Assembly: GCF_025602895.1 (NCBI RefSeq)
Contig: NW_026516284.1
Coordinates: forward strand, 124,001-188,000
DNA length: 64,000 nucleotides
Reading direction: 5' to 3'
From: Polychytrium aggregatum
Taxonomy: Eukaryota > Chytridiomycota > Chytridiomycetes > Polychytriales
Shown here: piece by piece, positions 1,590 through 50,786 of the stretch
How the letters are laid out: the number at the start of each line of letters is the position of its first letter
How positions within the stretch are numbered: position 1 is the first letter of the stretch
The notes under the pieces: generated by a model
Seen by the model: the letters and a program-made list of their open reading frames with translations, nothing else
Database searches by the model: none
What the model was told of the DNA's origin: nothing
Position numbers and translations under genes: made by a program

Positions 1590-3289
1590 ATGGTCCTCGT
1601 TGTTCTCATCTTCCTGGCCATCCTCTGTCCTCTGCTCACGCTGTTGCTGGGACTGCACCTGGTTGCCTCCAAGGCCACCGAGTCGCCCACAAGCCCGCTC
1701 ATTCCGCTGCCGGGTCTAATCATGGCCACACTGGGCCAGAACGTGGGTGCACTGATCATCATCACGGTGCAGCAGATCTACGGCGAGACCATCTTTTTTG
1801 ATGTCATCAGCCAGGCTGCCGGCTCTTCCTCCTCGGCCAGCGCGCTGTCGCCAAACTCGGCATGGATCGTCAAGCTATGCAACTTTTCGGCTGGCTGGAA
1901 CTCGTTCACGGGCCTGGCCTCGTACTGCAACGGTAAGCGAGAGAACCGACATCGAGCGGCCGTGCGCATTGGCGGAGGGCTGTGTATGGGGGTCTTTGAG
2001 CGAGTTGTGAGGTCCATGAGCGGTGGATGCGCGGGTGGCATGCATCCAGCCAGCAGATGTGCATTCGCCCCGGGGATGTACCTTCGATGAAGGGGTGCGT
2101 TTGATTGACAGGATGACGGCCTTGTCGAACGAGTCCGGTGACCACCGGCATATAACAGACTCGATGCGTTGCCATGATGGTCTCTTACGGATAGCGTCTC
2201 CGTCCCCTCGCCCTCAACAGCCTTCCTCCTGGGCGTGATGCTCTACTATGCAAGCGCCCCTCACTGCCTGTTCAATCGAGCCCTCATCCGATACCGCCTG
2301 ATGTCGTGGGCGCTGTATCTGATCATGGTGGCTCTGCCTGTCCTGGGATCCATCTGGTTCTGGGTCAATCCCGGCCAGTGGCAGGGCCAGCCGACGTTCG
2401 GACACTGCTCTATCAGCCTGGACAGCTACGGGCCCCTCTACGCCATGCTCGTTCACGACACCATCATCCTCATTTGTGGATTCTTTGGATTCCTGGCCGC
2501 AAGTATGTATCGGCGCCGCGAGCTTGCCACCGTCTCCCCTGTCTCCCCTGTCTCCCCCAGTCCCCAGCCCCCCTGTCTCCCCTCCCTTCCTGCCATGGCA
2601 CTGACCCACCTTCGTCAGCCCTCACTCTCGTAAAGATCATCCAGAACCGCCAGGACCTCGCCAAGCTATACCAACACGTCCCTCGAGCCCACAGCCATCT
2701 CCTGATCCGGCTGATGATAATCAGCTTGACCATGGGCTTCTTCGGCATGCCCTACGCCGTTTACAATATCTACGATACCCTCACCAGCCTCTCGGTGATC
2801 GGCCAGCGTCCCAAGCCGCTCACCTACGATAACTCCCTGTCGGCATCCCTCACCCTCTACGTGATCATGGTCCTCGGCTATCTGCTGCTTGTCGTCTTTG
2901 GCACAACAGAGCGACTTTGTGACCTCTACACACGCTGCTTTGCCAGGATGACGGCGTGCATGTTGCCCGAAAGGAAGAAGGTATGGCGCCGTTGCGAAGG
3001 AGAGAAAGATATATTTGATGCCCTGACTATGGAGTCCCGATGGAAGTGGGAGGTCCATTGGCAGCCAATTGCAAGCCGATAGCAGACCAGCACGAGTGGG
3101 ATTAGGTACCATGTCCCCCCCCTCCTCGCTTCCACTGCCGCTAACGCATCCGAGATTACCTGTTTTTGCCTCCAGCGCCGAAACGACCACCTTCCGAGTC
3201 ACCTTGAATCTTGCGAATCGACTGCAACTGACACGGGCCCCACCATCACCACCTGGACCTCTGCCAGTGTGTCCAAGGACGCCATCTGA
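1590..3289 (+). CDS. Ste3-like (class D) seven-transmembrane receptor
   Basis: Four exons fit by frame and splice phase: 1590-1932, 2221-2502, 2619-2980 and 3176-3289, giving about 366 residues. Exons 1-3 hold seven hydrophobic spans. The first opens directly at the N-terminus (MVLVVLIFLAILC), with no long extracellular N-tail. The stretch between spans 5 and 6 is a basic cytoplasmic loop, followed by RLMIISLTMGFFGMPYAVYN, which has the same layout as the Arg-started sixth helix with an internal Pro in yeast Ste3. Exon 4 encodes a short Ser/Thr-rich hydrophilic tail. In dikarya, Ste3 receptors bind lipidated a-type pheromones at the plasma membrane and signal through a heterotrimeric G protein. 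The ligand here is unknown. The family call rests on remembered motifs and topology, so another fungal GPCR class remains possible. Confidence 0.6.
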
Positions 3290-12593: not shown

Positions 12594-15500
12594 TCACATT
12601 TCCCCTGAGTACAGTGTAACTTCCTCCACCTCCTCGACCACCTCCTCGATGTACACACCTTCTCCATTGCTGTCTGCGTCGCTGCCCGGGTTCGTGATGC
12701 GGTATCCCCCACACTCCAAGCAGCAGCTGCACTCCCCGAAACCAGTAGCTTCGTGGAAGCGGTCGTCCGAGTCGGCATCATAGTCGTGATGTGCGTGGAT
12801 GCCATTTGTGAGGGCAGCGGGAAACCGCCGGTGATCTGGAGTCGATTGATCCGACTCGCAGTCCGTAAAGTCTTCGAGATCAGGCAGGTCCGAGTCATCG
12901 CTCAGCTCGCGGGAGCCAAAGCTGTTTGCGTCGCAGTAGTCCAGATCCTGGCTGCTAATATCCTCCAGATCAGGTAGGTCCGAGTCGGAGCTGTCGTGAG
13001 CCGGGAGGCTGGCATTCCAGCAGCACTCGCCGTCGTCGGGATAAGCGTCGTCCGAGTCGTCAGCGTCTTGATACTCGCGCTCAAACGCCTCGCTGGTGTA
13101 GCTGTCGAAGCCGTGACCAAAGAGCGTTATATGGCGAGGATCAAGAACGCGGCGAAGCGTTTTGCGGATGCGACGGCGATTTCCAAACGCGCTGGCCACG
13201 TCCTTTTCCCACTTTTGGTTGCGGACGACAACCTCAGCAAGACTGGTGCGCAGCTCCAGTTCCCTTCGACGCTGGGTCTCGAGCTGCCGTTGGAGCGACT
13301 GGACTTGGTCGCGAACATCGTACATCTGATTGGATGAGGCGCGATCGCTCGTCGCGGATTCAGAAGAGTCATCCGCAATCGGGTCAGAGTCGCCTTGCTG
13401 CTTGAGTGAGGCCGGTTCCATCACGACGCTGGTGCTATCGGCATAAACGGCGGACTGTCCATCCGCAGGCTCGGTGTCCAACTCCAAGACAGCTGGGCTT
13501 GATACGGTTTGTTCTCCGAAACCATTGCTAGCCTCGCCGCCGATGCGAGCCGAGGTGCTCGCGTGGTCAGCCATGGTCGTCAGGATCGCGGAGCTGAGTT
13601 GGGGAGAGGGCTTCGCAAGGTGGCCGCGCTCACGCTTGCGAGGATGGCGCTTGTTTCGGAATGTATACAGCCCAACGCCGTTTGCCGCCTTTCGAGAAGC
13701 GACGTTGGCGAGTTGGACGGACGACAGGACCGGGGCAATGGCTGGCTCGCCTTTGTGGACATGCTCCAAGGCCTTTTCGAAGATTCCTGGGGGGATGTCA
13801 AAAGTCAAATTGACATCAAGGGCTCCATCACCGGCGTCATCTTCGTCGACGTAATTTTCGTCGCCATCGTAGTCGATTATCTCTTCGTCGGGATCGACCG
13901 GGCTAACAGGCTTCACTGGTTTGTCGCCCAGGGTGAAGATCGAGTCCAGCTGCTGCGAGGCGCGCTGCGGAAGCATGAGCGGGCTTGGCTCAAGCGCGAG
14001 ACTGTGATTCTGGACCGACTTGAGAAGGCCTTGGTTGATGGCGTTGCTGGTGCTGATGATGGCTTCCGACATCAGTTGAGCCTTGTCCTTGGCAAGGCCA
14101 CCGTTCGCAACGACTTCGTTCAGATGATCTAGGAGGCCGTTCCAGGCCACAGCATTGGCAGTAGGATCGGTGGTAGCGATGGCTGGCTGAGCACTTCGAA
14201 TCGGAGCATTGGTTCCGGGAACAGGCCGGACAGGGTCGTCGGCCTTGGCTGGCGTCGCAGCGGCGGTGGGCTTTGTATCTCCTGTACGCCCTGCGGAGCG
14301 AGATCCATCGACCCAAGTTAAGCACGAATGGTCAGAAGGGGACAAGAGACAGCTCCAAGATGGGAGCGTCGAAATCAAAGAGCAAGCTCGAGGGTTCTTG
14401 GCGGTCACTGGAGGAATGCCCATACCTTTCAGGAGCTCGGATGGCGCTGGCGGAGTCGAGTAGTGAGTGTCGTACTGGTCGATCACGACTTGCGTCAGCT
14501 CCTCGATCCTAGTAAAATAGGACGCGGCCTCCTCCGATCCAAGGTCGCGGTGACACATGGAGCCTTCAAAGAAAACACGAAGGGTTTCGGCCGCAGCCAA
14601 GAGATCGGTCGTAAGGCGGAACCCCATCGACGACGGACTCTCGGCAAGCTCGGTAAGAGCATAACAGAGGTGGTCGTTGATCTTCTTGAGGGTCGTCATT
14701 GCTTCGGTGTAGATAGGCACCTGCTTTTTGGTGTGTCGGGCGCTTCGGCTCGAGAATAAGGCTTTGTATTTGGTCCAGCTTCGGCAGTATGCCTTGAGGA
14801 GCTTCATGATCTCCAAATGGGCAGCATGGTCGTCCTGGACAAGGTCTTCAAACTGCAATATATCGGTCAAGTCCAGGATCTGGAAGGGCTTCTGAAATTC
14901 GAAGGGATGCTGCTGCTGCTGCTGGTGGTGGTGGTGGTGGTGATACGCGCCTACATGGGACTGCTGCTTGCGCTGGGCTTTGCGAGTATTGGTGCGAGAT
15001 GACTTTGCAGGCTGGGCTGCAGCAGTGGACTTGGTGGGGAGGGGGGACTGCTGGGGTGTTGGCTGGCTGTGTGCCAGAGACTTGGGGCTGGGAGCAGGCA
15101 CGACCGGAGGGATAGGGGTCGCTGGAACTGAGGACGGCAGAGAGCTGTCCGCAGCTGCTGCGATCGGGAGCGGGAGCAGGGTGTCGCTTGGCGGTGCCGC
15201 CGGCGCATTTTCTGCAGACTGCGCGGCCTCATCGCCGCTGCCTTTGGACAGAGGCGGGGGTATGGCAGCGGCCAAAGTATCGGGTTGCTTGCTTGATGGA
15301 GTGGTGATTGGGCTCGTCGGCGCGACAATCTCGGCCGGCTCTTGCGAGTTGGTGATCGGAGACGAGGGCGACGAGGGCGACAAGGGCGTCTGTTGACACG
15401 GTTGCTGCTGAGGCTGCTGCCGTTCTTTCGCGGCCTGAAGTTCCTTCGTCCTCTGCTCTTCGGCCTTCCGCAGCTCCTCCGCCTTTTGCTGCTCCTCAGC

Positions 15501-16415
15501 AGCCTTCTTTTGTGCTCGCTTCTGGAGCTCGAGCCGCTTGCGCTCCTCGTCCTTCTTCCGCTCTTCTTCGCGCCGTCGTTCCTTTTCAAGCCGTGCCTTC
15601 TCGCGCTCTTCGTCTCGCTTTTTCTCGAGCTCCTTGCGGCGGAGCTCGCGCTCTGCCTTGCGCTTCTGCTCCTCAGACTTTTTCTTGAGCTCTTCTTCCC
15701 TCATCAAGCGCAGTTCCTCCTCGCGTCGCTTGTGTTCTTCCCTCTTTCGAAGCTCTTCGGCCTCCTTCTTCTTCCTGGCATCCTCTTCGCGAAGGCGTTG
15801 CTCGAGTAGCCATTTGAGTTCAGGATTCTCGGCTCGGTGAGTTTCGTCGTTGCCGACAGACTTTGCAGCACTGGCTTCGGTCGAAGTAGTGCTCTGGAGG
15901 CTCTCCGTCGAGGGCTTGGCAGACACTGCCTTTCTGGATACAGAGGGCGACACCGGGCTGCTGTTGTTGACCGAGTCTTGGGGAGACCACAGATGGATAG
16001 GGGACTCCAGTTCGCTGGGGCCACTCACATAGATGACATTGCCCTTTTTGTCGGCTTCTTGATGCCCTTGGGTTGACACGGAGGAGCGGGGACTGGGCTT
16101 GATAAAGCCACTGATTGACCCACCCACGATGATCTTAGCTGCGCTTCCCTTGTGAGCCTTCCGGTCGACAGGCTCGGCAAGGCGCTTCTTGGACTGTCCC
16201 TGCTTGGATTTGACACGCTGGGGCTCTGCCGACTCTGCAAGCGGCTCTGCAAGGTCTTCAATAAGAGTGGTGGCTTCTTGGGCATCGGCTCCGACTTGGG
16301 CTTCAGCACCGTCTTCGGCCTTCATAGCGCTGGCACTTTCGCGAATAGATGGGTCGCGGGTAGACTTGTTGGGTATATCTTGGCTTTGGGAGCCGGGTAG
16401 AGGCATGGTGGTCAT
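12594..16415 (-). CDS. Long coiled-coil protein with acidic C-terminus, unknown function
   Basis: One open frame runs from the first in-frame ATG (16415) to TGA at 12594, 1,273 residues if unspliced. A 135-nt in-frame segment (14425-14291, GTATGG..CGCAG) looks like an intron, and removing it gives about 1,228. Order: Ser/Pro-rich N-part, then about 150 residues of Arg/Lys/Glu heptads (REEELRLMREEELKKKSEEQ), a Pro/Ser/Thr linker, a His6/Gln5 tract, and an ordered-looking segment (FQILDLTDILQFEDLVQDDH to about YDTHYSTPP). A second coiled coil (QVQSLQRQLETQRRRELELR) and a tail with repeated DSDLPDLED follow. The charged coiled coil superficially recalls Nst1-type stress proteins, but I do not claim homology. 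The gene starts only 192 bp after the NOT4 stop on the same strand. Confidence 0.62.
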   Translation of the reverse strand: MTTMPLPGSQSQDIPNKSTRDPSIRESASAMKAEDGAEAQVGADAQEATTLIEDLAEPLAESAEPQRVKSKQGQSKKRLAEPVDRKAHKGSAAKIIVGGSISGFIKPSPRSSVSTQGHQEADKKGNVIYVSGPSELESPIHLWSPQDSVNNSSPVSPSVSRKAVSAKPSTESLQSTTSTEASAAKSVGNDETHRAENPELKWLLEQRLREEDARKKKEAEELRKREEHKRREEELRLMREEELKKKSEEQKRKAERELRRKELEKKRDEEREKARLEKERRREEERKKDEERKRLELQKRAQKKAAEEQQKAEELRKAEEQRTKELQAAKERQQPQQQPCQQTPLSPSSPSSPITNSQEPAEIVAPTSPITTPSSKQPDTLAAAIPPPLSKGSGDEAAQSAENAPAAPPSDTLLPLPIAAAADSSLPSSVPATPIPPVVPAPSPKSLAHSQPTPQQSPLPTKSTAAAQPAKSSRTNTRKAQRKQQSHVGAYHHHHHHQQQQQHPFEFQKPFQILDLTDILQFEDLVQDDHAAHLEIMKLLKAYCRSWTKYKALFSSRSARHTKKQVPIYTEAMTTLKKINDHLCYALTELAESPSSMGFRLTTDLLAAAETLRVFFEGSMCHRDLGSEEAASYFTRIEELTQVVIDQYDTHYSTPPAPSELLKGMGIPPVTAKNPRACSLISTLPSWSCLLSPSDHSCLTWVDGSRSAGRTGDTKPTAAATPAKADDPVRPVPGTNAPIRSAQPAIATTDPTANAVAWNGLLDHLNEVVANGGLAKDKAQLMSEAIISTSNAINQGLLKSVQNHSLALEPSPLMLPQRASQQLDSIFTLGDKPVKPVSPVDPDEEIIDYDGDENYVDEDDAGDGALDVNLTFDIPPGIFEKALEHVHKGEPAIAPVLSSVQLANVASRKAANGVGLYTFRNKRHPRKRERGHLAKPSPQLSSAILTTMADHASTSARIGGEASNGFGEQTVSSPAVLELDTEPADGQSAVYADSTSVVMEPASLKQQGDSDPIADDSSESATSDRASSNQMYDVRDQVQSLQRQLETQRRRELELRTSLAEVVVRNQKWEKDVASAFGNRRRIRKTLRRVLDPRHITLFGHGFDSYTSEAFEREYQDADDSDDAYPDDGECCWNASLPAHDSSDSDLPDLEDISSQDLDYCDANSFGSRELSDDSDLPDLEDFTDCESDQSTPDHRRFPAALTNGIHAHHDYDADSDDRFHEATGFGECSCCLECGGYRITNPGSDADSNGEGVYIEEVVEEVEEVTLYSGEM

Positions 16416-16606
16416 GGAAACTTGTGGGCTGGCCTCGGAAGGTTGCTCGAGGGCGTCTTCGGCAGAGATTTGGGGGCTTTGGGTTGATTGAGGATCTTTT
16501 TTTGGGGTTTCAAGGTTTTTTGTGTCTGTGGTGCGGCACTCTTCATCGGGCTCGCCCACATTATTCTCCGACAGAGATGTTCTGTCGGAGGAAGGGGGAG
16601 GCGGGG

Positions 16607-16744
16607 CTAGTTCATTGCAGCTCTCCGGCCGCCCTTCGCAAGGGTGGCTGGTGAGCCGCTCGTGCCGACCTGAGCCAGACCCATCATCGGGTTGCTCTGA
16701 CTCAGAAGCCCGGGCGGGCCTTCCCGAGCAGCTATCATCATGGG

Positions 16745-16780
<36 letters not shown>

Positions 16781-19700
16781 ATGCTGAAGTCGAAAGGCTT
16801 GCATCGTCTGCAGCTTCACGGATGGATCCTGTTGGGACCACTCCTGGCTCGCTGTGCCAATGGCTGTCTGCATCAAAAGAGAGCCGCCGCTCTGGGGGTG
16901 AGCTAATGAATGGGCAGAGCTCAGCGAGGTCCGCATCAAGCTCGATGGCGCCAGCGGAGTCGTCGAGGTGCCCAAATTCGAGAGGGGGCTGGACATTAAA
17001 CCTTGGTGGTCCCAGCTTCGGGGGCCAGTTTCCAAAGCTTGCTTATATCACACGGAGGAACAGGCAGCGAGTAGGATGATGCACGGACGAAGAGCGAGAT
17101 GCATGCGTTAAGAAAGTGGCCGCTGCGCCAAGGACTCTGCATATGCCGTCGAGGATACGACGAGGTCAGAAAATAACATGTACTCTACCATTGTGATGCG
17201 CCATGGGTTGCAGTCCGGGCGCAGGGAGTCCTGGGGCGCCTGCACCACGCATGCTGTTAACGGAGCTCATGGGGGGACCCGAGAGCCACTCCGATCCCAC
17301 AAATGAGGGTGACCCGTTCATGCCGTCGCTCGAGCCCATGTTGCCACCAAGAGGCCGGTTGCGGCCGGGATGGTCCGACATGGGTCCGTTGCTCATCTTG
17401 GCGGCCATGATGGCCGGATCTCGGAAAGGCATGCTGCTTGATGGCGTGGCTCGCTGGGGCATGGGCGGATGGTGGTGCTGAGCCTCGTTGCGCAGCTGTG
17501 CGTCGCGCAGGAACTGGTTGAAGAACTCATCAGCACCATGGCTAGATGGCTTGGTATAGGGTTCGTCTTGTGGCCGCAGAGACGGCTGCTGCATGAATCC
17601 CATCATCCTTGACGATACGCTTGCATGCTGCTGCAGCGGGAAGGGCGGTTCAGCATCTCGTTGCAGGAGATGGGGGGGCATACCCATGCCCTGCACTCCA
17701 ATCTTGTGATCAGGGGCCATGAAATCGGTGGACCGAACGCCGGGAAAGCCGGGCCGTGGGCCGCCGTATGGAGGCGTGGCGACGCGGGGCTGGTATGTGC
17801 CCGGCCCGGTCCATTGGTCAGCTTTGCTGCTGGGTTGGTTGGGCCACTTGTCGCCGCCAGGATGTGCGTCAGGAGCAAAGGAAATGTTTACATTTGGGAA
17901 AAGCGCCCGGAGAGATTCCTTAGGAGGGAAATCACTACGATTAGCGTCGATTCGCGGCTAATGTGCGTCGACAGCAAACTGATTCGGATGCATGCGGTGA
18001 CAAGAAATACGCCTCAAAGCAAGGGATGGGGAGCATACCTGAGAAGCAACACGGTCGCGGAGTGGCGCATTGTCAGCCGCAGAGGTTTCTTTGCTATCAA
18101 AGAATTTCTCAAAGCGACTGTGGTGCTTGTGCTCGAGGGACGCTGGAGGAACGGGGATGCCGGGCGGAGCAGAGGCGATCGGGAGATCATCGCGGAAAGG
18201 GTCAAATCGGAAGCCGTTGGGCTGTCCGAGTGACGGCGGGTGGGTTGGAGTCGAACTGAATAGGGGGTTACTGCTGGCGCCGGGTAGCTCTGGGGGAGAA
18301 AGCGAAGCAAGTGAGGCCATAATCTTGGCCATTAGATCTTCCCGGAAGGGATTGAACGAGCCCTTGTAGCGCGGCCGCATTTCGTGATCCACAGGGTCGA
18401 TGGGTGCCCTTGTTCTGGCACCGTCATCTGCAGCTCGATCAACAGGCTCACTGCCTTCTTCGAGGGCGGAGGAGGTGAGGAACTCTGAGTCGTCATTCCC
18501 ATCTTCATCTTCATCTTCATCTTCATCTTCATCTTCATCTTCATCTTCGTCCTCAGTCTCTTCGTCGATTTCACCGGCTCCCTCCAGTGTGAGGTCCTGA
18601 GCGTCTTCAGATGCGGCGTCATCTTCGGGGACTTCATCCCGGGGCAAGTCCTGACCGAAGGACTCGCCGCTGCCAACATCTAGATCGGCCGTTTCCGATG
18701 GGACGCCTGTTGACACTTCCGCTTCGCCGGGGAACTCTTCCTGAGCCTCCTGCTCCTCTTGCTGGTCTCGCTCCTCGTGTTCGTCTTGTTCGTCTTGTTC
18801 GTCTTGTTCATCGTGCTCAGAGAGATCGTGGATACTTTCCGGCTCAGGCGATGCATGCTGCATCGAGGCTGAGAGAACTGACTGCGGCTTAAGCATCCCA
18901 TGGATCTTGGCATCATCGTCTCCATCCGAATCCCAGGCGCTGGACCGAACAGAGTCGCTCGGGAGATCAGAGACCGAGGCGGGCGTAGTGGAGACATGGG
19001 GAAGCACTGCGGTTCCTGTCGATATCGACGCTACGCCTGATGGCTTTGCATGAGACTTGACCGGGGCGCGTGGCGAGGTCGGGACCGAGGTCGTGCGCGC
19101 CGTAGAGGTTGACTTTGCCCAGTTCGCTGTTGCTGGCAGAGCATTTGCGTTCGCATCGGCTCTTTCTTTGGGGAGCTTGAGCGCCGGAAAGGGCGGGACG
19201 CGGGTGGGGTGGAAGCGTAAATTGAGTTTCCTACACCAACACGAGGATGGAGCAGTTAGTGCCTGTGGTTCAGATGACTGATTCGGCCGCATCAACATAC
19301 TAGGCACGACGTGGCACAGCGTGGTGGCAGACGTGCTCATGGAAGCAGCAAATCCACTCACGCCATCTCCTCCTTCTCGATTGCGTCGGCGTCTTCTCCG
19401 ATTTCATGGAGATAAGGACACATGCCGTTGGGACATGGCTGGTTTTTCAGAAAGTACGAGCAGTACTTTGTGGTGCCGAAAGTGGCCCTGCGAGTGCAAG
19501 TGCAAGTGCAAGTGCGGCCCAGGTGAGCATCAAGAACGAAAGAGCGACTAATATCACCGATCGCGCGCATCGATTGTCTTGTGACGATATCACAGGCGGA
19601 AAAGCAAACCCCAGAGGCCGGCAGCAATATTGCTCTGATACAGGTGGCACATACCGAATGACACGGCCCTCTAACACCGAGCCATCCACAGCCTCGATGG

Positions 19701-25826: not shown

Positions 25827-26348
25827 GCTCGGGGCGCTGTCACGATGGCACAACTTGCACACCGCGAGTTTGTGCCTGCCCTGGGTCTGGACCTGGGTCG
25901 AGGTGGGGGGGATTTTCACTGTGATCGATAAGTGCAAGCTGTCATCCGGCGTTGATACGAGGTACTTTTGCGGGCTGTGGTGAAGACCGGCCCCACAGAA
26001 TTTCCAAAATAAGCGGGGGCTGGACCCGGGCCGCGACATGGTGAACCACGGATGGTCACGCTGATTCATGTTTCAGCAGAAAGAATCAGGGCTGGTCTCG
26101 ATGACGATAGCACGCCGCTTGGAGGCATCCTGACTCGTTGTGAGAATGGCCGGTGGCTGAAGCAGGCTCATGCAAGAAGAAAGCCGGAATAGTCGCGATG
26201 CCAGAATCATCGCAGTCGCAGATGAGCGGGTCGTCAGCGGGAAGCTGCTCGCTCGTCACCGGCGTTGCTGCTCTCAGTCCTCAACAGCAAATTCGTCTTG
26301 AATAGCTTATGGATCTCACAGACGAATCTTCATGGGCGATAAGTTAAT

Positions 26349-26412
26349 GCGATATATTGCGATATATTGCGATATATTGCGATATATTGCGATATATTGC
26401 GATATATTGCGA
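26349..26412 (+). repeat. 10-bp tandem repeat (GATATATTGC)
   Basis: About six perfect head-to-tail copies of a 10-bp unit. A Cys-rich or Ile/Tyr-rich translation in the surrounding frames is a by-product. Confidence 0.95.
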
Positions 26413-26420
26413 TGTACCAA

Positions 26421-26571
26421 CCGCATCCACTGCATCCACTGCATCCACTGCATCCACTGCATCCACTGCATCCACTGCATCCACTGCATCCACTGCATCC
26501 ACTGCATCCACTGCATCCACTGCATCCACTGCATCCACTGCATCCACTGCATCCACTGCATCCACTGCATC
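26421..26571 (+). repeat. 9-bp tandem repeat (TGCATCCAC), about 16 units
   Basis: The array of a 9-bp unit is nearly perfect. Because 9 is a multiple of three, all six frames stay open and give artificial tripeptide repeats. It starts 9 bp after the 10-bp array. Confidence 0.95.
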
Positions 26572-26874
26572 GAGAGCACACATATAGGGTGTCGCACTCG
26601 TTGGCCGGACAGACCGGCGGATCCATGCTGGCCCTTGCTTCTCTGGGGGCAATGCAAACGGCAATTGAACCTTCGCCGAGTGATCAAATGCGCATTTACC
26701 AACCCAGACACAGGGATACAGGGCACGCCGCCACGATGGGGCTATATGGGCAGACATAACTTGCCCTGCCTCTATCCGAAGACGATGTGTATTTGATGCT
26801 GTCAAGCCGGCTGACATGGTTTCCGGGATATGCTGACACTGCTGCCGAGGCCCCGCGAGTCCGAGTCATATATA

Positions 26875-27357
26875 TCATGCATCGAGCTCGTTGCCGCCAA
26901 AGTCTCGCCGCGGGCCCTTGACATCCAGGTTGCTGGGCTGTCTTGACACCCACACCCGGGCATCGACCACTTTGACATCGAAGCAGTCAAGGATGGTTCG
27001 AGAGTTCTCGCAGGTTCCTGTCGTGACATCATATGTCCATCCGTGCAGGTGGCAGGTAATTGCGGTTCCCCAGATGATCCCCATGTCTTCAATGTCTGTG
27101 ACGACGCCTTTGTGGAGGGGAGCGCCCTGATGAGGGCAGATGTTCAGAACTGCGTGAAACTTGGTCTTGGGCCCATCTTTGGCGGTTGTGTCGATCTTGT
27201 GGATAAGATTGACTCGGCGCTTCGGATCGTCGGCGAGAGGAACAGGCGTGCACGAAGCGGTCTTGCCTTCGGGGATGGCAAAGTCTTCGACAGAGCCGAC
27301 GCAAAAGTACCTGGCCTCGAGGCTGCCCTCGACGGCATCGTCTTGTTGGGGAGCCAT
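26875..27357 (-). CDS. Rieske [2Fe-2S] domain protein
   Basis: A single exon gives 160 residues from ATG 27357. The Rieske cluster-binding boxes are complete: ICPHQGAPLHKG (Cys-x-His) and ITCHLHGWTYDVTTG (Cys-x2-His), 20-odd residues apart, so a [2Fe-2S] cluster held by two Cys and two His is expected. The protein is just the Rieske fold with short flanks and no oxygenase catalytic domain, so it resembles stand-alone Rieske ferredoxins that pass electrons to an oxygenase or reductase. No targeting peptide is obvious. The physiological partner cannot be read from the context. It is divergent from the cyclophilin gene, about 300 bp away, with E-box motifs and a minisatellite between them. Confidence 0.85.
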   Translation of the reverse strand: MAPQQDDAVEGSLEARYFCVGSVEDFAIPEGKTASCTPVPLADDPKRRVNLIHKIDTTAKDGPKTKFHAVLNICPHQGAPLHKGVVTDIEDMGIIWGTAITCHLHGWTYDVTTGTCENSRTILDCFDVKVVDARVWVSRQPSNLDVKGPRRDFGGNELDA

Positions 27358-27425
27358 GGCGATTGAGTGCAGACGGGGCCGACACGGCGCTTGGGACACG
27401 ACCTGGCATCAAATCGGCGAGGTAT

Positions 27426-27455
27426 CACGTGCGATCGATCACGTGCGATCACGTG
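27426..27455. promoter_or_regulatory. Cluster of three CACGTG E-boxes in a divergent promoter
   Basis: CACGTG occurs at 27426-27431, 27440-27445 and 27450-27455, each preceded by T or GAT. They lie about 70-100 bp upstream of the Rieske ATG (27357) and 205-235 bp upstream of the cyclophilin ATG (27661). CACGTG is the site of fungal bHLH factors such as Cbf1 and Pho4. Binding here is inferred from the motif only. Confidence 0.5.
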
Positions 27456-27471
27456 GGGAAACGATGAAAGA

Positions 27472-27580
27472 GAGACCAGCCGAGACCAGCCGAGACCAGC
27501 CGAGACCAGCCGAGACCAGCCGAGACCAGCCGAGACCAGCCGAGACCAGCCGAGACCAGCCGAGACCAGCCGAGACCAGC
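27472..27580 (+). repeat. 10-bp tandem repeat (CGAGACCAGC), about 11 units
   Basis: Nearly perfect array placed between the divergent Rieske and cyclophilin genes, just beside the E-box cluster. It lies upstream of the cyclophilin start and does not enter either coding region. Confidence 0.95.
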
Positions 27581-27660
27581 CACGGCCCTTCAAGTGCGAG
27601 CCACCCGGATCAAGGCGATCCTTGCGCTCCTTCGCATCGACTTGATCCTGAATCCCCGCC

Positions 27661-44247: not shown

Positions 44248-47200
44248 TTAGGCGGTAAAGCCGTTGACAGAGTTGAATTGATCGACCCACTGGCGATGCT
44301 GCTGCTCCAGCTGGCGCACAAGGTCGTAATCGACCACGCCCATGCCCCAGGAGTCGGGGAGGGGGCTGCCATAGGCAAGCGGCATCGCAATATCGTCGAC
44401 AAAGCTGCTGCTGCGGGGGAGCGGCTGCTGGTAGGAAGTGCAAAGAGCGGCTGCGGACATGGCGTTCGAGATGGTGAGGGGCTCGAAGGACGTGATCGAA
44501 TCGGAGAGCTGGGCCTGGCCGGGGTTCTTGTTGCCAAAGTAGGTGCCAGCCTTGGACGGGTTGGCCTGTTGCCAGAGGTCCCAGACACGATCGATGTTGC
44601 TGGAAGCGTAGAGCAAGCGCATCAGGGCAAGAGTCGTCAATATTGATGCCACCACAACGGCCGACTGTGCACGACGGGGGCAGCCAGCCGTGCAAGCACT
44701 CGACTTACCCATGGAGCAGGAAGAAAATGGGATCGTTGGGCGAGTAGAGTGGTGTCAGGTCACCGTTGGGGCCACCGACGCAGACTGGCAAGTCGTATCG
44801 CGATATGAGTGTGGAGAGGCAACAGGGTTAGATGGCGATATGAGACATGCAAACTGGAATCCACTTCCCAACGGGGTTTCAGCGAACGAGGGGCCCGAAC
44901 ATACCGTGGGGATAGCCGTGAACAATCTCCCAGGTGGTACGGAAGCTGTTGTAGTCCAAGGTGGCGTTGTTGATCAATTGGGTCTGGATTTCGGCGTTGG
45001 TCCAGAAGGCGTCGGTAGTGATGGTGGTACCCTGGTCCCACTGTCGCTTGATGCACTGGCCAGCAAGGTTGCCGTAGAAAATATTGGAGACGGGGTATTT
45101 CTTAACCCACTCTGTAGGTAGTCAGGTTGCGTCACATCGTATTAGCACAGCTCTATCTTGGCCCTGTGTCGTTGTAGACACCTAGGCGCGGCTGTGGGCT
45201 GTGGACTAAGCAAGATTCGGATGCGCCGTCTGGTCACGAGCCGTGCGGCCACCGTCGATGGGAATCGGTGGGATTCACAAAAGCACTCACTGGAGGCAAC
45301 GCCGTCCTGGAGACAGTAGTTGGTGGTCGAGTCGCCGTTGTGGGTGCCGAAGGTAGTGGGGTCAAAGATGACCGACTGCGAGGGCTGGTGCGAGTCGGCG
45401 CCAAAGTCCCAGTAAGGGAGGAAAACGTTGGGGTCGATGTTCTTCAGATGCTGCTCAAAGACGTAGATGAACCATCTGTGCCAGGGGAGGAACGCGGGCT
45501 ATCGTTGCCGATGGATTGTTGGTGCCCAGGGCCAAGTGAGAAGACAGAGTGGGGAGATCAGTCAATGTGGACGTGCAGCAACACACTTGACTTGGTCAGA
45601 GCAGACGCCTTGAGATGCACTCAAGTGTTCTTGAGGATCAAAGAGTACAGCCACACATACCACATAATGCGCCGTGAAAGTATTGGTCAGATGGATGTTG
45701 ACAAAGTCGTCGTAGTCGTAGGTGTTGCCAAAGACATCCTTATTCACGGTCTTGAGCTGGTTAAGGGCGTTGATGTAGCGCGTGCGTTCGTCCGTGCTCA
45801 TGTCATACCAGCTCTTGCGAACGCTGACGGTGGGGCAGGACGTGGGCGGGCGGACAATAAACTGGGGCAAGGTCGGGGCGAATCCAGAGATGCCCACTTG
45901 CATCCTCCAGACACCGCCGCAAGTCTCGGCGCTGTTGCCGGAGCAGGCGATGTTGCACTGAGACATGGGAACTTGCGTGCCAGCAATGCCGGTATCGCCA
46001 CCTGGGTTTCCGTAGGACACGCTGTTTCCGCAGCGGCACTCTGTACCAGCTTCAATGCCGTAGTAGCTGTGGCGAGTGCGGGGGTATAAAATTAGGGATC
46101 ACACAATAGGCAGGAAACAATCCGCAACAGCGCATTATGCGACAAAGATCGTCCAACAGCTAACGGCCACAACAACAGCAACAACAGCAACAACAGCAAC
46201 AACAGCAACAACAGCAACAACAGCAACAACAGCAACAACAGCAACAACAGCAACAACAGCAACAACAGCAACAATAGCAACAATAGCTGGGTGTACGTAC
46301 ATATAGTGGTAGTAGCTACAGAAGGCCTTGCACTTCTCGATCGTCTGGGTGGGGCTGTTTCCGACCTGGACATGACACAGAGGGGATGGGCTATCAGTAC
46401 GAAGCGCTGGTGCATATCGCATGCAGCATACACAAGGCGTCGTGACTGCGCTGGATGATGATGGCTTACCGTGACAAGGTCGCTAATGATACGGGCGCTG
46501 TTGTCGATGTAGCAGCCCTCGCCGAACGAGAGATAGATGGAGATGGCCCAAGGACCGCCACAGAGACTTCCGTCGCGGCAAGGGGTGTTGCAAGTCGAAT
46601 CGGCCACGATCGAGCCAGCGAGGATGCTACCACCGTTTCCGGCAGCACTGCCGTAGTTGATGGTGTTGCCGCAGTGGCATTCGCCAGCGATTTCAACACC
46701 GGCGTAGGTGAAGTTCTGCGAAGCACACCAGTTCTGGCAAGGAGCAGGGGAGCTGGTATCGATTTGGTACTAGCGATGGACATATGGCATGAGGGATCAG
46801 CTGGAGATTGCGACAGTGGACAGCAGGAGCAGTTTCAAAACATCAAGCTGCAATGGCGCTCTGTAAGGAGCAGACTTACGTTGGCAGCACCGCTAAGGAC
46901 TCTGGAGGGGCTATCCAAGAAGCAGCCCTGATAGACAGTGTTGGTGACGATAGGCTTGGGCGGAGGGGTGGGCAGCAGAGTGCTGGTACTAGTGGTGGTG
47001 GTGGTCTTGGTGGTAGTAGTAGTAGTAGTGGTAGTGGTGGTGGTGGTGGTGACCGGGACGGTGGTGATCTTGAGACCCGTCAGTCCAACCTGCATCTTCC
47101 ACGAGCCACCACACAGCTGAGTGCTGTCCCCAACACAGGGGATGTTGCAGCTGCCGGCGGGAGCAAGGGTACCCGCAATGCCAGCCGAGTCACCCGAGGG

Positions 47201-50200
47201 AAGGTTCTCGTAGACAACACGGTTGCCACAGTAGCATTCCTGGCCAGCCTCGACACCAAAGTACCTGTAGTGTTGCATGAGACAATCAAACAGGCGAGAC
47301 GACACATTATTGCCTGGCGATGATCGGCATCAGCAAACTCAGCAGCTAGTCATCGGACCCTTGAGTGTCTGTGTCCGTCAACTTACGCGGCGCCTTGAGA
47401 CAGACAAGTGCTCTTGCATTGGCTGGCACTCAGTCCGAGAGGGTTCTGTCCAATCGATTCACAGACAGCGTGATGAGTCTCGGTTATTGCTGGCTGTCTC
47501 AGGTCCATGCAATATCTCGATTCTATGTCCTGTCATTGCTACTTACGTTGGTGACCTTGCGGAGATCGCGAGCCGAGTCGTCGTAGTAGCAACCTTCGAC
47601 CGAGGCAAAGTAGACCGAGGCAAGCCAGCCACCACCACAGCTGGTGGTGCCATCGCCAGGGCAAGGAGTGCTGCAGCGAGAGTCGGCGACAAGAGTGCCG
47701 ACGACACTGCCATCGTTCAAGCCGGAGGGAGTGCCGGAGCTGAGCTGCTGGCCACACCAGCACTCGGCACCGTTCTCAAGGCCAGCGAATCTGTCGTCAA
47801 AGGATCTGGGTCAGATGGCCGCGCGGAATGACATTGAATGGCGCCGGGTGTGATACAACGGCAACTTACTCGTAGCCAGACTTGAGGCACTGGAGCTGGC
47901 AGTTGGGGATGGTGAGGGGGGAGACGCTCTGGAGCAAACGTGGAGAGACCGTTGTCAGGATTGACGGTTGGGGCACGACATTGATGGTGAAGCATTACAC
48001 TGAGCCGAACCCAGAGGTCCGAGGAACTGCTGGTGAGAGCGGCGACAATACTCACGACTTTGGTGGAAAGGAGACGGCTGGGACCATCGGCGTAGCAGCC
48101 AAGATAGGGTGAAACGGGGGGCAGGTTGGTGGGGGTGGGCTTGGAGGAAGTGGTGGTGGTGGTGGTGGTCTTGGTAGTAGTAGTAGTAGTAGTGGTAGTG
48201 GTGGTGGTGGTGGTGACCGGGACGGTGGTGATCTTGAGACCCGTCAGTCCAACCTGCATCTTCCACGAGCCACCACACAGCTGAGTGCTGTCCCCAACAC
48301 AGGGGATGTTGCAGCTGCCGGCGGGAGCAAGGGTACCCGCAATGCCAGCCGAGTCACCCGAGGGAAGGTTCTCGTAGACAACACGGTTGCCACAGTAGCA
48401 TTCCTGGCCAGCCTCGACACCAAAGTACCTGTAGTGTTGCATGAGACAATCAAACAGGCGAGACGACACATTATTGCCTGGCGATGATCGGCATCAGCAA
48501 ACTCAGCAGCTAGTCATCGGACCCTTGAGTGTCTGTGTCCGTCAACTTACGCGGCGCCTTGAGACAGACAAGTGCTCTTGCATTGGCTGGCACTCAGTCC
48601 GAGAGGGTTCTGTCCAATCGATTCACAGACAGCGTGATGAGTCTCGGTTATTGCTGGCTGTCTCAGGTCCATGCAATATCTCGATTCTATGTCCTGTCAT
48701 TGCTACTTACGTTGGTGACCTTGCGGAGATCGCGAGCCGAGTCGTCGTAGTAGCAACCTTCGACCGAGGCAAAGTAGACCGAGGCAAGCCAGCCACCACC
48801 ACAGCTGGTGGTGCCATCGCCAGGGCAAGGAGTGCTGCAGCGAGAGTCAGCGACAAGAGTGCCGACGACACTGCCATCGTTCAAGCCGGAGGGAGTGCCG
48901 GAGCTGAGCTGCTGGCCACACCAGCACTCGGCACCGTTCTCAAGGCCAGCGAATCTGTCGTCAAAGGATCTGGGTCAGATGGCCGCGCGGAGTGACATTG
49001 AATGGCGCCGGGTGTGATACAACGGCAACTTACTCGTAGCCAGACTTGAGGCACTGGAGCTGGCAGTTGGGGATGGTGAGGGGGGAGACGCTCTGGAGCA
49101 AACGTGGAGAGACCGTTGTCAGGATTGACGGTTGGGGCACGACATTGATGGTGAAGCATTACACTGAGCCGAACCCAGAGGTCCGAGGAACTGCTGGTGA
49201 GAGCGGCGACAATACTCACGACTTTGGTGGAAAGGAGACGGCTGGGACCATCGGCGTAGCAGCCAAGATATGGCGAAACGGGGGGCAGGTTGGTGGGAGT
49301 GGGCTTGGAGGAGGTGGTGGTGGTGGTGGTCTTGGTAGTAGTAGTGGTGGTGGTGGTGGGCTTGGTGGTCGTCGTCGTTGTCGTCGTAGTGGTAGTAGTA
49401 GTAGTGGTGGTGGTGGTAGTGGTAGTAGTGGTGGTGACAGGAACGGTGGTGGCCTTCAAGCCAGTCAATCCGATCTGCATTCTCCATGAGCCACCGCAAA
49501 GCTGAGCGCTGTTGCCCACGCAGGGTGTGTTGCAGCTGCCGGCGGGAGCAAGGGTACCCGCAATGCCAGCCGAGTCGCCAGATTTGAGGTTCTCGTAAAC
49601 GACACGGTTGCCACAGTAGCATTCCTGGCCAGCCTCGACACCGTAGTAACTATGAAGGTGCAAGAGGGAGCATGGGGATCAGTGGGCTGTTGCTGGGGAT
49701 TGGGAGTCAGTAGGCGACAGCGGCCTTCATGGCGATATGATCTTACAAAGCTTGCTGGGAAAGACAAGTGCTCTGGCACTGGCTGGCACTCAGTCCGAGA
49801 GGGTTCTGTCCAATCGATTCACAGACAGCGTGATGAGTCTCGGTTATTGCTGGCTGTCTCAGGTCCATGCAATATCTCGATTCTATGTCCTGTCATCCCT
49901 ACTTACGTTGGTGACCTTGCGGAGATCGCGAGCCGAGTCGTCGTAGTAGCAACCTTCGACCGAGGCAAAGTAGACCGAGGCAAGCCAGCCACCACCACAG
50001 CTGGTGGTGCCATCGCCAGGGCAAGGGGTGCTGCAGCGAGAGTCGGCGACAAGAGTGCCGACGACACTGCCATCGTTCAAGCCGGAGGGAGTACCGGAGC
50101 TGAGCTGCTGGCCACACCAGCACTCGGCACCGTTCTCAAGGCCAGCGAAACTGAAGCGAGCAGAGTGTGAGTCGAACCGAGCGAGACCGCCGATATTGTT

Positions 50201-50786
50201 GTGCAGTTCAGACGGGAATCGAGGCGGATGGCTACGTACACATATCCAGCTTGCACACAGGCGACCTGGCAATTGGGGATGGTGAGGGTCGAAACGCTCT
50301 GGGACGATCGAAAGGCACCAGGGTCAGCATCGAGGGCATGAGCTCTTGGGCAGGAAGCGAGTGGACAATCGGACGCAAAAGGACAGTGCCGCTGAGTCGG
50401 TCGCTGCAAATGCTGGAGTACGAGCGGGCAATACGCACAACTTTGGTGGAGAGAATGCGGCTGGGGCCGTCGGCAAAACATCCGACGTAGGTGGAAGCAG
50501 CCGCTGAAGAGCGCAAGAGACAGAAACAGCATCGGCATCGGCGTCAGTATCGGCATCGGTATCGACAGTCGAGTGACATCGGATCGTGGGCGCCCAGCCG
50601 CATCAGCACCCACGGCCGACGGTATCGTTGGTGGTCGAGCAGCTTCGAGGTGATGTTTGATGGTCAAGACGCCTCAAGACGCTTGACAACCCGACCCAAG
50701 TCTTGCCTTCTCCCACCTGAGACAACAGCGGCATTGGCAGCAGCGGCCGCGGCAACCGACACCCAAAACTTGTTGCTGGACGGCAT
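44248..50786 (-). CDS. Secreted tyrosinase with eight N-terminal WSC domains
   Basis: Twenty-one exons fit in phase from ATG 50786 to TAA 44248, giving 1,340 residues. Exon 1 encodes a signal peptide (MPSSNKFWVSV, Ala-rich, NAAVVS). Eight Cys-rich WSC domains follow as four pairs. Type A has GC[FY]ADGPSR and AGLENGAECWCGQ; type B has GVEAGQECYCGNR and QLCGGSW. Three pairs end in Thr-rich linkers. The C-terminus (exons 17-21) is a type-3 copper domain: CuA with NIH, TAH and FLPWHRWF (His-x8-His), CuB with HGYPH, VGGPNGDL and FFLLHGNIDRVWDLW. All six copper His are present; the first of the usual HH pair is Leu. It should oxidise phenols to quinones (melanin or cross-linking), probably held at wall glycans by the WSC array. 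Exons 7-10 and 11-14 are near-identical copies. Confidence 0.85.
46168..46284 (+). repeat. (CAACAG/CAACAACAG)n microsatellite in a tyrosinase-gene intron
   Basis: About 117 bp of CAACAACAG-type repeats lie between exon 17 (from 46066) and exon 16 (to 46301) of the tyrosinase gene, i.e. within an intron. Poly-Leu and poly-Thr/Ala translations of this stretch are artefacts. Confidence 0.9.
46995..49322 (-). repeat. 1,164-bp direct tandem duplication inside the tyrosinase gene
   Basis: Positions x and x+1164 agree almost base for base from about 46995-48158 against 48159-49322. The copies include exons 11-14 and 7-10 and their introns; only a handful of substitutions were seen in the non-linker part (e.g. 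G to A near 47688/48852, A to G near 47827/48991). Differences concentrate in the Thr-rich linker and near 48106/49270. A third, diverged unit lies at about 49323-50500. Confidence 0.92.

Follow-up and report, generated by a model that had tools for sequence, protein, structure and literature searches.

The genome of Polychytrium aggregatum, a chytrid of the order Polychytriales, was predicted to encode a tyrosinase preceded by a series of WSC domains. This raises the question of whether both parts indeed belong to one gene and, if so, what the product of such a gene would do. The window considered here, i.e., the whole stretch of DNA analyzed, is 64,000 nt long.

Gene model and domain architecture

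Upon rebuilding, the gene was found to run from 50786 to 44248 on the minus strand, comprising 21 exons and 4,023 nt (including the stop codon) and encoding 1,340 amino acids. All 20 introns begin with GT and end with AG, with phases being consistent throughout. As such, the exons, phases, and length of the original prediction, which had called for one 21-exon gene with phase-consistent splicing, were reproduced. Exon 1 (50717..50786, minus strand) carries the start codon and a probable signal peptide, namely, a hydrophobic stretch starting at residues 5-16. Exon 17 (45661..46066, minus strand) encodes the end of WSC 8, a short proline-containing junction and the start of the tyrosinase with HisA1 and HisA2, while exon 21 (44248..44599, minus strand) encodes the end of the copper domain, the C-terminal extension, and the stop codon.

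Exon 17 is one open stretch across the WSC/tyrosinase junction. In models of paralogous genes on contigs C290 and C32/C235, considered below, the junction likewise falls within a single exon (exon 8 and exon 9, respectively), which ends at the equivalent place, in phase 0, just before a FLPWHR motif. Given that a single exon spans the junction, the fusion is independent of splicing, and a splice artefact was ruled out as its source; the prediction that WSC and tyrosinase sequences share one gene thus held, both here and in the C290 and C32/C235 models. Two adjoining genes or an assembly chimera taken for one fusion gene could account for a protein database having returned two other tyrosinases of this genome but nothing for its three WSC-tyrosinase loci. 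Such an explanation is, however, hardly credible with the junction being covered by one uninterrupted exon and with the same junction appearing on both haplotype contigs and in the C32, C235, and C290 paralogue models. These paralogue models are approximate, having been generated by a gene finder whose codon table was trained on the window gene and which recovered 18 of the 21 exons of that gene.

The predicted domain content of the 1,340-residue product was borne out by a Pfam scan, with WSC (PF01822) being detected in eight stretches (369.8 bits; cut-off 27.8) and Tyrosinase (PF00264) at residues 1042-1235 (120.6 bits; cut-off 22.6), encoded at 44566..45717 on the minus strand. With bounds drawn from Pfam and a motif rule, and again on the minus strand, WSC 1 corresponds to residues 29-128 (49961..50489, several exons) and WSC 2 to residues 129-229 (49460..49960). 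These are followed by a first threonine-rich linker (49292..49450), WSC 3 (residues 293-392, with the Pfam stretch covering 293-382; 48765..49270), WSC 4 (residues 393-493; 48239..48764), a second threonine-rich linker (48128..48229), WSC 5 (residues 538-637; 47601..48106), WSC 6 (residues 638-738; 47075..47600), a third threonine-rich linker (46979..47065), WSC 7 (residues 786-885; 46524..46933), and WSC 8 (residues 886-986; 45883..46523). Each of the eight domains, within its motif-rule bounds, contains eight cysteines. Pfam and the motif rule thus recovered the predicted four WSC A/B pairs, set apart by three threonine-rich linkers; the gap between WSC 8 and the enzyme is a short proline-containing stretch. 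At E<=0.01, the scan of the product otherwise returned only a sub-threshold Mucin match, with neither CBM18 (PF00187) nor AA5 being found.

All six copper-ligand histidines were located, namely, H1050, H1058, and H1067 of CuA and H1194, H1198, and H1223 of CuB. Together with a PF00264 match above the curated cut-off, this agrees with the complete six-histidine type-3 copper domain originally predicted. The PF00264-type core and the six histidines are shared with solved type-3 copper proteins, and the HisA spacing of 8 and 9 residues matches that of Aspergillus oryzae catechol oxidase; to our knowledge, no solved type-3 copper protein carries a WSC array. The CuB motif reads FLLHG, as opposed to the usual FLHHx seen in both paralogue models. 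The second histidine of the usual pair, the copper ligand (H390 in human TYR), is retained. The idea that this CuB site is unusual was dropped, since leucine is common at the first position of the pair (found in 35 of 171 motif-bearing relatives, from 175 examined, against histidine in 134). The residue following HisB1 is glycine (His-Gly-Tyr-Pro-His), found in 29 of 169 relatives with the motif, where asparagine is commonest (99). As glycine at this position, judging from structure-function work, leans toward oxidation of diphenols over monophenols, classical tyrosine-to-melanin chemistry is uncertain here. Past PF00264 come about 105 residues with no Pfam match, where long fungal and plant tyrosinases have a C-terminal shielding domain.

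When solved structures were ranked by sequence, molluscan hemocyanins, which share the fold but carry oxygen, came first (8trz, 5.8e-81), with scores summed over many repeated units. Other matches included a Streptomyces tyrosinase (1wx2; E 1.5e-24) and a fungal catechol oxidase (4j3p; 2.9e-23). In a protein search, the nearest named catalytic relatives among the best 120 of 431 matches were fungal, chytrids included.

The protein also appears to be maintained. Comparison of WSC pair 1 with pair 2 gave dN 0.06 and dS 0.43, while comparison of the tyrosinase part with the approximate models gave dN 0.33 and dS 1.16 for C32, and dN 0.42 and dS 1.08 for C290. With dN being below dS, these values suggest a constrained protein under purifying selection.

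The predicted signal peptide was recognized by eye and by hydropathy as a hydrophobic N-terminal stretch and is accordingly termed probable. Indeed, the 12 highest 19-residue hydropathy windows all start at residues 5-16. The C-terminus is hydrophilic, with the best 19-residue window starting past residue 1290 averaging 0.55 in simple hydropathy, and no candidate for a membrane helix and cytosolic tail of the Wsc1/Slg1 type was found among the 12 top windows besides the signal peptide. The prediction of a wall-tethered protein thus found no support if a membrane-borne wall sensor is meant, a topology rejected on simple hydropathy. Instead, the probable signal peptide, lack of a second such hydrophobic segment among the top 12 windows, and hydrophilic end point to a secreted, soluble protein. 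Were the WSC part an adhesin or wall sensor, with the copper domain being a passenger or structural element devoid of oxidase activity, this would be in line with WSC domains being best known from wall stress sensors and with the comparison of one WSC pair to solved structures, in which six weak matches were obtained, the best being Kremen 1 and another being 7pz2, a yeast Wsc1 structure. Still, the absence of a membrane-spanning candidate among those windows, the retention of all six ligands, and catalytic dN below dS across the three loci make this very unlikely.

Elsewhere in the window, 20 other open stretches (19 of the 28 with at least 260 codons and one shorter) were scanned with Pfam. 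WD40, Vac14, and a UAA nucleotide-sugar transporter scored above the cut-off, EF-hand and the STE3 receptor family scored below it, and the other 15 stretches had no match. As no second WSC or tyrosinase match was found within the 64,000 nt, nothing points to a gene cluster. The sub-threshold match to a fungal STE3 pheromone receptor (2195-3079, plus strand; 22.5 bits, cut-off 29.2) is possibly of interest, the mating systems of chytrids being poorly known. An open stretch of 1,482 codons at 12597-17042 on the minus strand had no Pfam match at E<=1e-4. A radial-spoke gene is also present in the genome, in keeping with a flagellated fungus.

Haplotypes and paralogous loci

Contig C386 is collinear with the window. 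In blocks of more than 400 bp, and leaving aside a missing unit addressed next, the two are about 99.4-99.9% identical in long blocks and 96.5% identical in one shorter block; as such, both haplotypes seem to be represented in the assembly. On C386, the gene contains 17 exons and encodes 1,076 amino acids with six WSC domains. Its product shows zero amino-acid substitutions relative to the window protein, differing by a single 264-residue gap that corresponds to one WSC A/B pair and linker. The original count of eight WSC domains therefore stands for the window haplotype, where Pfam detects eight stretches, but not as the state of the gene at large.

The WSC-pair units are marked by a 300-nt stretch present in three tandem copies at 47396..50055 (minus strand), spaced by 1,164 and 1,196 bp, with one such unit being absent from C386. 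The first unit of C386 is a mosaic, its head resembling unit 1 of the window and its tail unit 2. Specifically, at the 197 sites that differ between window units 1 and 2, C386 matches unit 1 at four of the first five and unit 2 at all 192 that follow, and it further presents five differences from both. A mosaic with differences of its own fits the loss of one unit from C386 by unequal crossing-over around exons 4-5. Alternatively, a near-identical tandem repeat could have been collapsed or over-expanded upon assembly, such that no real difference between haplotypes exists, an idea favored by the 699/700 identity of window units 2 and 3 over the part compared. However, the mosaic and its five private differences suit real unequal crossing-over, and the flanks are collinear at about 99.4-99.9%, leaving an assembly artefact rather unlikely. 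Intron 16 contains a long CAA/GTT triplet repeat (46164-46277) and measures 234 bp in the window vs. some 162 bp on C386. A second structural difference between haplotypes was seen at 26038-27581 of the window, where C386 is about 0.5 kb longer. Other candidate haplotype pairs present equal numbers of WSC matches, all counts being lower bounds, namely, C32/C235, C35/C382, and C49/C346 (4+4 each), C12/C112 (5+5), and C88/C101 and C14/C375 (1+1 each).

The genome presents 25 tyrosinase matches at 18 places. At five of these 18, namely, on C400, C386, C32, C235, and C290 (at 345 kb), the same strand carries WSC matches at a distance of up to about 0.6 kb; the five correspond to three loci. By Pfam, the C32 model contains five WSC domains and PF00264, and the C290 model four WSC domains and PF00264; a raw DNA search gave four and five WSC matches, respectively, one of those on C290 being partial and containing a stop. 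The C32 and C290 catalytic domains are about 54% identical to that of the window. In a 28-row tree, the catalytic domains of the three WSC-tyrosinases group in a single clade with support of 99/93, and the fusion most likely arose once.

The tree comprised six of our own models and 22 proteins chosen from 175 database proteins. It took in C335, C290 (401 kb), and C190, with C24 and C62 being represented by database proteins P0003 and P0002, respectively, and C369, the twin of C335, being left out. Seven of 12 further tyrosinase contigs (C92, C224, C62, C375, C399, C384, and C408) offered no usable model, as judged by eye. From the C290 model, 32 residues resembling an unspliced intron were removed for the tree, these being present in the Pfam scan, the database search, and the dN/dS comparison. 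In the raw DNA of 20 tyrosinase loci (L009-L028), a regular expression for the copper motifs found no match, either because the motifs are interrupted by exon boundaries or because the expression was overly strict. P0002 (BJ171DRAFT_254687) and P0003 (BJ171DRAFT_498422) are stand-alone tyrosinases of this genome, with exact runs linking 363/363 residues of P0003 to C24 and 428/429 residues of P0002 to C375 and C62. Their catalytic domains are 45 and 36% identical to that of the window, respectively; unlike the window protein, both contain PF00264 alone among the listed Pfam domains and fall outside the WSC-tyrosinase clade.

WSC arrays were also found on other enzymes. Besides the window gene, five WSC models were scanned with Pfam (C32, C290, C39, C12, and C382), with WSC loci on C346, C13 (666 kb), C88/C101, C14/C375, C24, and C13 (521 kb) lying outside that scan. 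The C39 model (L034) is a GH18 chitinase with five WSC domains, the C382 model (L037) is a CE4 deacetylase with four, and the C12 model (L036) is an FTP-M36 metalloprotease (fungalysin) with at least three, the first 969 of its 1,321 modelled residues having been scanned. With such arrays also accompanying GH18, CE4, and M36 models, the WSC array appears to be a targeting cassette of general use. For CBM18, the genome gave five matches spread over three contigs, and none of the 18 tyrosinase places has one nearby.

Putative function

The best reading of the sequence is that of a secreted phenol oxidase with carbohydrate-binding modules. More specifically, the protein would be a type-3 copper phenol oxidase that is secreted and kept on polysaccharide by its WSC array, a reading to which a probability of roughly 0.6 is assigned. 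The sequence itself shows the architecture, the intact ligands, signs of purifying selection, the three paralogous loci, and the difference in WSC number between haplotypes of the assembly. The wall-tethered phenol oxidase of the original prediction is in this manner kept as a secreted enzyme with carbohydrate-binding modules, and abandoned as a membrane-borne sensor.

In the proposed mechanism, the N-terminal WSC A/B pairs, joined by threonine-rich linkers that are probably O-glycosylated, would anchor the enzyme to chitin and/or beta-1,3-glucan. At the polysaccharide surface, the anchored enzyme would turn o-diphenols, and perhaps also monophenols, into quinones, and these quinones would darken or cross-link that surface, with secretion, binding, oxidase activity, and this last effect all being predicted. 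The eight- and six-WSC haplotypes would yield isozymes with the same catalysis but unequal reach and binding valency. With respect to what WSC domains bind, WSC3 is cited as a beta-glucan-binding lectin in the accessible part of one source (PMC10225716), while chitin binding is reported for GLX1, a WSC-bearing AA5 oxidase, in that of another (PMC8400822). What a WSC domain recognizes may vary from one protein to the next.

The same enzyme could be aimed outward, with the WSC array docking on arthropod exuviae or other chitin; there, it would act on the phenols of sclerotized cuticle or fasten the fungus to its food. Both the docking and these roles are less probable than the reading above, in which the polysaccharide may be that of the fungal wall or of another chitinous surface. 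Still, attachment to chitin outside the fungus deserves to be taken seriously, as WSC arrays are shared with the chitinase, deacetylase, and protease models of a chitin-associated species. Indeed, according to the accessible text of the report on strain JEL109 of P. aggregatum, this strain was isolated by chitin baiting and contains many GH18 genes (PMC12115818). The same enzymes could, however, remodel the fungus's own wall, where the tyrosinase may act in melanization or cross-linking, the melanization of cysts or sporangia put forward in the original prediction being one possible role.

Comparison with known systems

Chytrid tyrosinases with carbohydrate-binding modules are already known. 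Those described, as far as the accessible text of the sources extends, carry CBM18 (PMC3569864; PMC5364385). The CBM18 tyrosinase-like proteins of Batrachochytrium, Homolaphlyctis, and Polyrhizophydium (PMC3569864; PMC5364385; PMC12204190) similarly combine a tyrosinase with carbohydrate-binding modules; in the same partial texts, a sister class has a deacetylase as its fusion partner, and the CBM18 number of homologues varies among Bd strains. The module there is CBM18 (PF00187), whereas the window protein carries WSC. Database entries from two other chytrids, Zopfochytrium polystomum (P0122) and Chytriomyces hyalinus (P0123), join PF00264 to a ricin-B lectin in one long protein; these differ in the ricin-B type of module and in their catalytic domains, whose identity to that of the window is only about 30-33%. 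Finally, TrLOx (AA5) presents five N-terminal WSC domains ahead of a secreted copper oxidase, as does the window protein in kind, according to the part of the source available (PMC8400822). WSC-AA5 enzymes are, however, copper radical oxidases, whereas the window protein contains a dinuclear type-3 copper tyrosinase domain.

As to WSC-bearing tyrosinases elsewhere, PF01822 and PF00264 did not occur in one protein in any of the 175 database proteins among the matches listed, these comprising one protein (with about 737-2,345 residues admitted), the best 120 of 431 (194-617), and 55 (512-1,628). The search for this architecture called for by the original prediction thus came back empty, yet offers weak evidence, since the database misses at least the three P. 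aggregatum loci, which are absent from the listed matches while P0002 and P0003 are present. Likewise, no WSC-tyrosinase fusion is described in the accessible text of literature mentioning both "WSC domain" and "tyrosinase," a scope outside of which most subscription papers fall; no paper was found combining WSC, tyrosinase, and Chytridiomycota, and the available text of the chytrid literature consulted makes no use of "WSC." Within the literature and databases so covered, the WSC form of such a protein appears to be new, as do its triplication and the variation of its array between haplotypes.

Tentatively, and with less confidence than is placed in a surface-held phenol oxidase, the WSC array of Polychytrium may be an interchangeable docking cassette of variable copy number, serving tyrosinase, chitinase, chitin deacetylase, and metalloprotease alike and replacing the CBM18 and ricin-B modules of other chytrids; a single individual would then hold two tyrosinase isozymes identical except for valency (eight vs. 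six WSC domains).

The findings widen the habit of chytrids to pair a tyrosinase with a sugar-binding module from CBM18 and ricin-B to WSC, suggesting that the module was exchanged between lineages while the enzyme was retained. If real, haplotypes one WSC pair apart would offer a natural comparison for the effect of module number on a surface-bound enzyme. The WSC-bearing tyrosinases are, moreover, candidate enzymes for wall hardening or for the handling of sclerotized cuticle by a chitin-associated chytrid.
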